Source: Acidobacteriota bacterium
GTDB lineage: Bacteria; Acidobacteriota; Blastocatellia; UBA7656
Length of the DNA stretch: 64,000 nt
Direction of reading: 5' to 3'
Assembly: GCA_038040445.1 (NCBI GenBank)
Contig: JBBPIG010000012.1
Coordinates: 62,001-126,000, forward strand
Shown here one piece after another: positions 17,131-19,704 of the stretch. A model generated the notes under the pieces. That model did not search any database, was not told where the DNA came from, and saw only the letters and a program-made list of their open reading frames with translations. The first letter of the stretch is position 1. The number at the start of each line of letters is the position of its first letter. The position numbers and the translations under genes are program-made.

Positions 17131-17158
17131 CAGGAATAGCTTTCCCAGAATCGCGCAG
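17131..17158 (+). repeat. Left copy of direct repeat bounding the R-M-like module
   Basis: CAGGAATAGCTTTCCCAGAA followed by TCGCGCAG matches the segment at 19678-19704 with one gap and about two substitutions. The two copies bracket the methyltransferase, nuclease and DUF433 genes, as expected for an insertion scar or recombination site. No integrase is nearby. Confidence 0.5.
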
Positions 17159-17280
17159 AGTGCTCCACCAATGGTCGCGCCCTGATCGTCGCGTTGAGTC
17201 ACGCGAAAAGTTTGAGGGCAGACTGCCCTTCTGCGTAGGTTCGCCCAAATTTCCTTAGCGACAGAAGCAACATTTGGCGG

Positions 17281-17308
17281 TTGACTAATTTGTCACCTGC
17301 TGTAGAAT
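17281..17308 (+). promoter_or_regulatory. Sigma-70-like promoter for leaderless transcript
   Basis: TTGACT (17281-17286), a 16-nt spacer and TAGAAT (17303-17308). The ATG of the downstream gene starts 7 nt after the -10 box, where transcription would begin, so the mRNA is probably leaderless. The same arrangement occurs at 61442-61470. Confidence 0.65.
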
Positions 17309-17315
17309 CGCACGT

Positions 17316-18386
17316 ATGGTGTTGGGGCCGAGACTCAGGCAAATCAGGATCGAAAGCGGGCTGAGCATAAAGGCGCTCGCGCGCAAGGTCAAAGTAAACC
17401 ACGCGTATCTCTCGCGTATCGAATCCGGGCAGGTTCAACCGTCTGAGCAGGTGCTGCGCAAGATATCAAAGGCGTTAAAGCACGACGAAGCAGAGCTAAT
17501 GATTCTTGCCGATCGTATTCCTCCCAAATGGAGATCAGCAATTAGGAAAACGCCAAAGGAAGCTGCTCTATTGATTCGAGAATCTATTGGAGAGTATGGC
17601 GGATCGGAAGACGGGAACGGCGCTTTGGGACTAGCCAAACTGGCGACTGCACGCGGCAAATCGAAACGGAAATCGCCGGCCGGAGTCTCCACCAATGAGC
17701 TTGTTTTTAGCGCACACAGCGGAACGAATGATGGTTTGTTTCCTCAAATACTTTCGTTGTACGTGATCCCCGGAAGCGTTGTCGCGGATGTGACCTACGG
17801 CAAAGGGGTCTTCTGGAAAAACATTCCAGAAGGACTGTACCAGTTGAAAGCCAGCGACCTCACTCAGGGAATAGACTGCCGATCGTTGCCTTATGAAGGT
17901 GAGACGATTGACTGCTTAGTTTTGGATCCGCCATATATGCACACCCCTGGTGGGACGGCACATGTGGGCCATCAGAACTACGAAGGCTACTATCGGAACA
18001 ACACTGCCGAGAATGGGTCCGGCAAGAAGTATCACGAGGCGGTTCTGGATCTCTACTTCAAAGCGGCGGATGAGGCAGGTCGGGTTCTGCGGGAAGAAGG
18101 GATTTTTATCGTCAAGTGCGCCGATGAGGTTTGTGCAAATCAACAGCGGTTGACCCACGTGGAGCTGATCAACGAATTTAGGAAGAAAAGTTTCATTGTG
18201 GAAGACCTTTTTGTTCTAATGCGGAGCAACCGGCCTGGGGTGAGCAGGATTTTGAAGCAAGTACACGCCAGAAAGAATCACTCCTACTTCCTGGTTTTCC
18301 GTAAATCAAATGGAAAGAGCCGCTGGACAGGACCGAAAAAAGCTAACGCCCGGCAGCCAAGTCTGTTACCTCATCAAAAAACTTAG
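17316..18386 (+). CDS. HTH (XRE)-fused DNA methyltransferase
   Basis: 356 residues. Residues 4-60 are an XRE/Cro-type helix-turn-helix (LRQIRIESGLSIKALARKV, YLSRIESGQVQPSEQVLRKI). After a linker (about 65-125) comes an amino-methyltransferase domain with SAM-binding motif I ADVTYGKGVFW (157-167) and catalytic DPPY (204-207), so the order is motif I before motif IV. It should methylate adenine N6 or cytosine N4 in DNA; the target is unknown. The HTH may let the enzyme regulate its own promoter, as in some R-M systems. It converges on the candidate nuclease gene with a 44-nt tail-to-tail overlap. No ribosome site precedes the ATG, in keeping with the leaderless promoter. Confidence 0.88.
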   Translation: MVLGPRLRQIRIESGLSIKALARKVKVNHAYLSRIESGQVQPSEQVLRKISKALKHDEAELMILADRIPPKWRSAIRKTPKEAALLIRESIGEYGGSEDGNGALGLAKLATARGKSKRKSPAGVSTNELVFSAHSGTNDGLFPQILSLYVIPGSVVADVTYGKGVFWKNIPEGLYQLKASDLTQGIDCRSLPYEGETIDCLVLDPPYMHTPGGTAHVGHQNYEGYYRNNTAENGSGKKYHEAVLDLYFKAADEAGRVLREEGIFIVKCADEVCANQQRLTHVELINEFRKKSFIVEDLFVLMRSNRPGVSRILKQVHARKNHSYFLVFRKSNGKSRWTGPKKANARQPSLLPHQKT

Positions 18387-19254
18387 CAAAGGGCACGACC
18401 GCCATCGGTGGATCGCCGGTCGCTAATGCTTCGTATTTCTTAGGCACGTCGAAATAATAGAAACGGTGCATCACGGCGATAAATCGATAGTAAAGATTCC
18501 ATTGCTTCGGCACACAAATCTCCACGACTTCTTTTGAGGTGTGGTCCAGCTTTGTTTCTGCAAGGCACACCAATATACCTTTGAACTTACCAAAACCATG
18601 GACGCCGTCGAGAACCCGTTGATGAGCAAACACCTGTATAACTCGCTCTCGGGTTGAGGTCTTTACAGGGACGTGGAACTTGGGTTTAGCCGGTCCGAGA
18701 TCGTAAATGAAGTCTGTGGGAAGTGTTCTCTTCTCATCTTCGAGTTGGAGGACTTCGACCTGAGTGCGGGGATTGACCCTGAAGGCCCGAGCGAAAAAAT
18801 GGCCAATCAGACATTCAAAGAAAGTGGCCGGTGTCTTTTGGTCTCCAGTTTTGAGAAGATCAGCCGCGCAGCAATAGGATATGGCAATCGTGTAAAGGAA
18901 TCGCGTTCGTTCCTGCAATTGAATTGTATCTAGCGTTCCTTGGAGTAGATTGTCTAGTTGACGTTTCGCGGAATCTGCGTCAAATAGGCTTTCGTTGACT
19001 GCCCGAGATAGCTTGGGCTTCCTCCCGGCTTTGGCAAAGGAGAAATAGGTCTTTTCGGGCACCTTCGAAATAAGTCGGACGCGTTGACACGAAGAAAGAA
19101 AATCAAGAGCCGCAGAGGTAAAGTGCGCGATCATCTCTGCGACTTCGGGCGATTTTGCATCCTTGGCCGTTTGCTTCTTGAGCGTCTTGTAACGAGTAGA
19201 CAGTGCTTCGAGAATTGGATTCACACGAGGAGCCATAGGCTCGTAATATAACAT
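18343..19254 (-). CDS. Candidate restriction endonuclease (PD-(D/E)xK-like)
   Basis: 303 residues, no named family recognised with certainty. The centre has the arrangement of a PD-(D/E)xK core: FFECLIGHFFARAF (helix with E147), then LPTDFIYDLG (D181), then FHVPVKTSTRERVIQ (K198). The acidic residue normally two before the lysine is replaced by P, so E147 may supply the missing charge; this is inference. Position next to and convergent with a DNA methyltransferase makes a restriction enzyme the best guess. The start may instead be the ATG at 19236 (MAPRVNP), since the first codons overlap an AT-rich stretch. It overlaps the end of the DUF433 gene upstream, so the two are probably co-expressed. 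Confidence 0.7.
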   Translation of the reverse strand: MLYYEPMAPRVNPILEALSTRYKTLKKQTAKDAKSPEVAEMIAHFTSAALDFLSSCQRVRLISKVPEKTYFSFAKAGRKPKLSRAVNESLFDADSAKRQLDNLLQGTLDTIQLQERTRFLYTIAISYCCAADLLKTGDQKTPATFFECLIGHFFARAFRVNPRTQVEVLQLEDEKRTLPTDFIYDLGPAKPKFHVPVKTSTRERVIQVFAHQRVLDGVHGFGKFKGILVCLAETKLDHTSKEVVEICVPKQWNLYYRFIAVMHRFYYFDVPKKYEALATGDPPMAVVPFAKFFDEVTDLAAGR

Positions 19255-19577
19255 TGAATAAGCAAGCTAGACATTCTCTTTCGCTGTCCTTCGTTACTTC
19301 CGAGCCTGTCCAGAACCCGTCGCCCTTTCGCGCTTCTGCGCCTTTCAATCTTGGTGGTGAGCGCCTCGCTGGCGAGATTGATTGCCTCTCCGATTGCCTC
19401 CCGGCTGATGCTGTTTCGATAGGCCGAGACAATCCAGTTCCAGTCTTTGCCTTGACCCGCGTAGTAGAGGACGTCTTTGACGAGGACGCGCGTGCCCTTA
19501 AAGGTCAGGTCTCCTCCGCAGATCTCCGGATCGGAAACTATGTAGTCGCCGAACTCCTTCCGTCTCCTGGCTGCCAT
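19221..19577 (-). CDS. DUF433-family protein (antitoxin-like)
   Basis: 118 residues with the DUF433 signature: DYIVSDPEICGGDLTFKGTRV at about 11-31, then the Y..A.G..W..I...Y..I helix region. DUF433 proteins have a small helix-turn-helix fold and are often antitoxins of PIN or DUF5615 toxins, but no such toxin is adjacent here. GGGAGAAAC precedes the ATG. Its 3' end overlaps the start of the candidate nuclease, so it may instead serve as a controller of the R-M-like module. The last 20 residues (SLLIQCYITSLWLLV) look unlike the family and lie in the overlap. Confidence 0.75.
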   Translation of the reverse strand: MAARRRKEFGDYIVSDPEICGGDLTFKGTRVLVKDVLYYAGQGKDWNWIVSAYRNSISREAIGEAINLASEALTTKIERRRSAKGRRVLDRLGSNEGQRKRMSSLLIQCYITSLWLLV

Positions 19578-19677
19578 GATGTTTCTCCCGATTTACTAAG
19601 AACCTCGATGAGTCTACCATCGGGCGAGCGAGCCAAACAACGATTCAGATTGCAAACGTATGCGCGGTGTTTGTCAC

Positions 19678-19704
19678 CAGGAATGCTTTCCCAGAATCGT
19701 GCGG
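19678..19704 (+). repeat. Right copy of direct repeat bounding the R-M-like module
   Basis: CAGGAATGCTTTCCCAGAAT followed by CGTGCGG; partner of 17131-17158. It lies between the DUF433 start and the end of the PQQ-propeller gene. Confidence 0.5.

Follow-up and report, generated by a model that had tools for sequence, protein, structure and literature searches.

Restriction systems must avoid cutting the DNA of a new host, and how they do so is a long-standing question. Endonucleases of the CCGG family combine a permuted PD...K...D/E(Q) active site with an R-(D/E)R recognition motif, and in Kpn2I a Gln takes the place of the Glu in the active-site motif (excerpts of PMC6344858). In M.SsoII and EcoRII, a methyltransferase with an N-terminal helix-turn-helix (HTH) domain represses its own gene (excerpts of PMC3978073 and PMC3874152), and the C-boxes of other systems have a GACT/TATA form (excerpt of PMC3758141).

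Here we describe a locus in a 64,000-nucleotide stretch of DNA from an Acidobacteriota bacterium (the window) that has features of both the Kpn2I and the SsoII systems. Its elements, with positions in the window, are as follows.

17131-17156, + strand: left copy of the flanking direct repeat (from self-match, shuffles and genome motif search)
17279-17296, + strand: candidate operator GGTTGACTAATTTGTCAC, over the −35 box of the methyltransferase gene
17281-17308, + strand: putative promoter of the methyltransferase gene (a consensus reading)
17316-18386, + strand: methyltransferase, 356 aa, with an XRE HTH domain (residues ~3-65), a linker and an N6/N4-type methylase with DPPY
18343-19236, − strand: Kpn2I-like restriction endonuclease, 297 aa from the ATG at 19236
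19221-19577, − strand: DUF433 ORF, 118 aa (Pfam DUF433, 8.5e-10)
19678-19702, + strand: right copy of the flanking direct repeat (from the same three analyses)

We hold it to be quite probable that this module was moved horizontally, that its XRE-methyltransferase represses its own gene, and that the DUF433 protein is an adjoining orphan antitoxin.

The restriction-modification pair and its relatives

The methyltransferase and nuclease genes converge, as an earlier note on this DNA had read them, and the tail-to-tail overlap of 44 nt that it gave is exact. The same note had the DUF433 frame overlapping the start of the nuclease, which also holds; the overlap is 34 nt when the nuclease is read from an alternative ATG at 19254 (303 aa), but the relatives of the nuclease align from the later ATG at 19236, so that an overlap of 16 nt is likelier. 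The proposal of a restriction-modification module is borne out by the nuclease sequence, by its predicted fold, and by the tail-to-tail architecture in relatives. A nuclease of Type II restriction fold adjoins a DNA methyltransferase, and the pair (17316-19254) is a genuine Type II restriction-modification module. The system is of an ordinary kind; its regulatory form is uncommon, and one relative, with a LexA fusion, is striking.

Pfam gave no family match for the nuclease. It was matched by PADLOC REase_II (E = 5.3e-26) and, by sequence, by PDB entry 6ekr (E = 1.4e-26), which the fold library names as Kpn2I. An AlphaFold2 model built from 13 relatives reached a mean pLDDT of 86.8, and a Foldseek search with this model returned Kpn2I (6ekr) at the top (E = 1.3e-13, TM-score ~0.77), followed by the CCGG-family enzyme PspGI (E = 5.5e-4); the modelled protein thus has the DNase fold on which the earlier note had made its reading depend. 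Residues D175, K192, R196-E197-R198 and Q206 (numbered from the ATG at 19236) lie at the Kpn2I motif positions, and in an alignment of 13 nuclease sequences all are invariant except R196, which is nearly so. Judged from these motifs, the protein is a CCGG-family, Kpn2I-like endonuclease, and the recognition and active-site motif by itself suggests that it recognises a CCGG-type site.

The methyltransferase matches the Pfam families HTH_31 (2.4e-13), HTH_3 (5.2e-13) and N6_N4_Mtase (1.7e-7), and its methylase core shares 47-76% identity with its relatives. On our own reading, the order of its motifs suggests a gamma-like enzyme, hence presumably one that may modify adenine at N6. A profile search of solved structures gave nothing meaningful, and the AlphaFold2 model was poor (pLDDT 53.6).

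The tail-to-tail overlap recurs in 15 of 15 loci, the window included, and spans 11-60 nt (11 nt in L060); three of these loci, L054 and L061 among them, are cut short or truncated. The methylase core also occurs on plasmids and as a solitary phage gene (Mycobacterium phage Wheeler, 58%), and it lies together with the nuclease on the viral contigs L060 and L061; phages may therefore carry the pair between hosts. Whole-genome sampling found a methyltransferase match in 14 of 396 genomes of the window's own phylum, 1 of 384 of the phylum of L030, 5 of 395 of that of L032 and 4 of 340 of that of L031, several of these matches being distant, and the nuclease was present in 3 of 58 near relatives, its own genome counted. 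The system was found in Acidobacteriota-like, Omnitrophota, Elusimicrobiota, Myxococcota, Chloroflexota, Verrucomicrobiota and Pseudomonadota genomes, and this scatter points to horizontal movement of the module.

In 464 kb of the host's own genome (the window and L114-L133), CCGG-centred hexamers are not strongly avoided: TCCGGA was seen 95 times against 112.3 expected, and ACCGGT 128 times against 161.7. The nearest relative of the nuclease (L054/L095, 83% over the last 144 residues) is truncated on its N-terminal side. Both observations would suit a module that is intact in sequence and inactive in restriction-modification, either domesticated or consisting of a solitary methyltransferase and a silent nuclease. 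We regard such inactivity as unlikely, since both reading frames run to full length and no expected motif is missing, and a young module would likewise leave no avoidance. Counts in other genomes vary. TCCGGA was seen 3 times against 96.6 expected in G025, which has the module, but it is also scarce in congeners in which the nuclease was not found (10 against 63.1 in G017; 8 against 32.2 in G037 and G040 together), and these congeners avoid many palindromes, not TCCGGA alone. In G804, ACCGGT was seen 4 times against 18.5 expected in the first 146 kb and 19 times against 36.4 in 285 kb (rank 8 of 59), and it was not scarce in G1368. As a separate observation, CAGCTG is almost absent from the 464 kb (6 seen, 96.4 expected by a Markov estimate) and is scarce in several other sampled genomes as well, which may reflect older restriction pressure or some other bias.

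Regulation of the methyltransferase gene

Enough upstream sequence was available for nine of the more distant loci. A free XRE gene of 59-80 codons immediately precedes the nuclease in six of them (L018, L019, L033, L034, L035 and L048) and is not seen in the other three (L036, L049 and L060). By eye, tandem C-box-like repeats before the free controller are clear in five of the six, with half the arrangement in L019; a single C-box-like repeat before the methyltransferase is likewise clear in five and weak in L035. In the window, L031, L032 and L106, by contrast, the XRE domain is fused to the N terminus of the methyltransferase; L106 breaks off at a contig end, and any nuclease gene would lie beyond it. 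No free XRE frame lies beside either gene in the window, whereas six relatives have one, and the separate controller gene seems to have been lost because its domain became fused to the methyltransferase. In the trees, the window falls with L030, L031 and L032 at moderate support (93/91 for the nuclease, 92/93 for the methylase), and the case for the fused group as a clade is not strong. Two further candidate fusions were rejected: the long open frame of L105 is an overlap with another gene, and the contig of L054/L095 begins inside the methyltransferase.

The putative promoter of the methyltransferase gene, as read from the sequence, consists of a −35 box TTGACT (17281-17286), a 16-nt spacer and a −10 box TAGAAT (17303-17308). 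The near-palindrome GGTTGACWAWWYWGTCAC overlies this −35 box, 35-36 nt before the ATG. Indeed, TTGAC-N6-GTCAC stands at that distance in all four XRE-fused genes (window, L031, L032 and L106), as a perfect inverted repeat in L031 and L032 and with one mismatch in the window and L106. Its left arm, TTGAC, coincides with the −35 box and is also plain −35 consensus, while its right arm falls in the spacer, a stretch not expected to hold a promoter element. The four fusion-bearing genomes (G000, G804, G805 and G1368) each contain GGTTGACWAWWYWGTCAC exactly once, at this position; six other genomes held no exact match, and two single-mismatch matches were found elsewhere. Since the pattern was derived from its four sites, its uniqueness and position are informative and its presence is not. 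Upstream of the nuclease, no operator-like site with at most one mismatch was found in the window, L030 or L031, and L032 has one imperfect match.

The best reading of this arrangement is that the methyltransferase would repress its own gene through the fused XRE domain, as M.SsoII does. Upon entry into a new cell, the unrepressed promoter would allow the methyltransferase to be made quickly; as the enzyme accumulates, its XRE domain would bind the C-box-like operator and shut its own promoter, and this shut-off would hold methylation at a level that protects the host while sparing few invaders. Expression of the nuclease would start at a promoter of its own farther upstream, with transcription in this case probably running through the DUF433 gene, and the fused XRE domain would assume the job that the free controller protein has in the sister group.

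A different regulator occupies the N terminus in L030, from the single-cell genome of Candidatus Omnitrophus fodinae SCGC AAA011-A17. Here a complete LexA, fused in frame, stands where the window enzyme has its XRE domain, giving a methyltransferase of 440 aa (L030:4874-6196); the fusion scores 196.9 bits with NCBIfam lexA (cut-off 110.95) and matches Pfam LexA DNA-binding and Peptidase_S24, and what we take to be the Ser-Lys pair and the Ala-Gly cleavage site of LexA are visible by eye. The fusion comes from one genome obtained by single-cell amplification, and no second one was found in 384 genomes of the same phylum; a chimera would have to be joined, by coincidence, in frame and exactly where the conserved core begins. 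The promoter region of the fusion is overlain by a perfect 9-bp inverted repeat, AAATAAACC-N9-GGTTTATTT, the strongest among 19 upstream regions scanned; on a rough count, a repeat like it would turn up about once in 200 regions, and it could still have arisen by chance. The same genome encodes another LexA-like protein over the cut-off (154.5 bits), whose gene immediately precedes that of a SMODS nucleotidyltransferase (L065:411-2220); the two are possibly a CBASS-type defence locus.

We tentatively suggest that the N terminus of the methyltransferase may be an exchangeable regulator slot, filled by XRE four times and by LexA once, and that the LexA form may constitute a damage-sensing antidote loop. 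In such a loop, the protecting enzyme would be its own DNA-damage-sensitive repressor: when protection runs short, DNA breaks would trigger self-cleavage of LexA, which would free the methyltransferase promoter and restore methylation. If the fusion is real, it would tie protection directly to DNA damage, an arrangement of LexA and methyltransferase for which we found no description in the open-licence literature.

The DUF433 protein and the flanking repeats

The earlier note gave the DUF433 protein the place of the controller, which would have been a new role for the family; our analysis takes that role away. DUF433 proteins can bind DNA, and VapB10 (COG2442/DUF433) binds and activates its own promoter (excerpt of PMC3834315). 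As a functional controller, the window protein would be a winged-helix protein, co-transcribed with the nuclease, that activates or delays the nuclease in place of a C protein. Its gene does precede that of the nuclease on the same strand, with an overlap from the likely start resembling the ~20 nt of C and R genes (excerpt of PMC2997769), and no operator for the fused XRE domain is seen upstream of the window nuclease. Such a role is nonetheless very unlikely. No DUF433 gene was found upstream of the nuclease in 13 relatives, by tblastn and by reading the ORF list, and the module already has a regulator in the XRE domain of its methyltransferase.

The paralogs of the protein in the host genome, moreover, appear to be antitoxins of toxin pairs. 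The host genome holds seven matches to it, itself included, and matches occur in 12 of 58 relatives. Directly behind two of the host's paralogs, and overlapping each by 4 nt, lies a 128-codon ORF that would encode a DUF5615/PIN-like toxin; one of the two ORFs matches DUF5615 at 2.4e-4 and falls slightly short of the curated cut-off (21.4 of 23.8 bits), and the other has no Pfam match and is alike in sequence to the first. Similarity between the window protein and its paralogs ends at about residue 87, where the paralogs stop, and its last 31 residues, which run into the nuclease gene, have no counterpart in them, which argues further against a controller and suits an antitoxin gene that has lost its toxin partner and now borders the module at its 3′ end. 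The protein is thus most likely an orphan antitoxin beside which the module landed, although, by analogy with its DNA-binding relatives, an effect on the nuclease is possible. Elsewhere in the host genome (L088:987-1529), two DUF433 units share one 180-codon frame.

Matching segments at both ends of the locus, which the earlier note had taken for an insertion scar, do stand above chance. The copies agree at 92% over 26 alignment columns with a 1-nt gap; when the 3.9-kb region was dinucleotide-shuffled 200 times, no shuffle reached their self-match score of 35.6 bits (highest 30.1), and a search of the 6.7-Mb genome that allowed up to three mismatches found the motif nowhere else. The repeats enclose the DUF433 gene as well, and the G+C content is ~0.49-0.53 in the module and ~0.60 in its flanks. 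The PQQ-repeat gene of the right flank is present in 29 of 58 relatives. In five stretches of 15-16 kb (from G027, G005, G004, G003 and G006), the gene order of the left neighbour and the repeat (up to four edits) are absent; no close copy exists in the sole congeneric genome, and no relative examined keeps the flanking gene order of the window. An insertion scar is one possible reading of the direct repeats.

The repeats might instead serve to regulate the module, as operators or similar sites, with one copy ahead of each transcription unit. The copies lie upstream of gene starts, ~160 nt from the methyltransferase and ~100 nt from the DUF433 gene, and their core looks nearly palindromic by eye, yet the two copies point opposite ways relative to the genes, and by eye no such repeat is present in the upstream regions inspected for L031 and L032, where the −35 palindrome is. 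We therefore give this alternative little credence.

Comparison with described systems

Kpn2I (T/CCGGA) is the nearest solved structure to the window nuclease in both sequence and fold, and shares with it the Lys, the R-E-R and the Gln. On Kpn2I-like plasmids, nuclease and methyltransferase genes converge as they do here, accompanied by a separate HTH gene. Their methyltransferase is of cytosine-5 type by annotation, whereas that of the window is of N6/N4 type, and their regulator is a free C protein, whereas that of the window is fused to the methyltransferase.

With the SsoII, Ecl18kI and EcoRII systems, the window shares an N-terminal, 434-repressor-like HTH domain on the methyltransferase, an inverted repeat over the methyltransferase's own promoter, and a nuclease of the CCGG/CCNGG family. 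These methyltransferases are cytosine-5 enzymes (excerpt of PMC3978073), in contrast to the N6/N4-type enzyme of the window, which would therefore stand outside the SsoII group and resemble it in regulation only. In SsoII, moreover, the two promoters overlap, which they cannot do in the window because the genes converge tail to tail.

Controller domains are also attached to a restriction-modification enzyme in the C-REase fusions of PvuII-like systems (PMC3850674), but there the partner is the nuclease, and here it is the methyltransferase. The DUF433 protein is of the same sequence type as the host antitoxins of DUF433-PIN pairs (VapBC10 type); in those pairs the next gene encodes the toxin, while in the window it encodes the restriction enzyme, with no toxin gene.

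The sister group (L018, L033 and others) follows the Esp1396I type, with a free XRE gene of 75-80 aa before the nuclease, tandem C-boxes before the XRE gene and one before the methyltransferase. The window operator keeps GACT...AGTC-like half-sites; it differs in being single, in having an AATT rather than a TATA spacer, and in serving a module without a free C gene. Two solutions can thus be compared within a single enzyme family: a free controller accompanied by C-boxes, and one joined to the methyltransferase that has an operator of its own.
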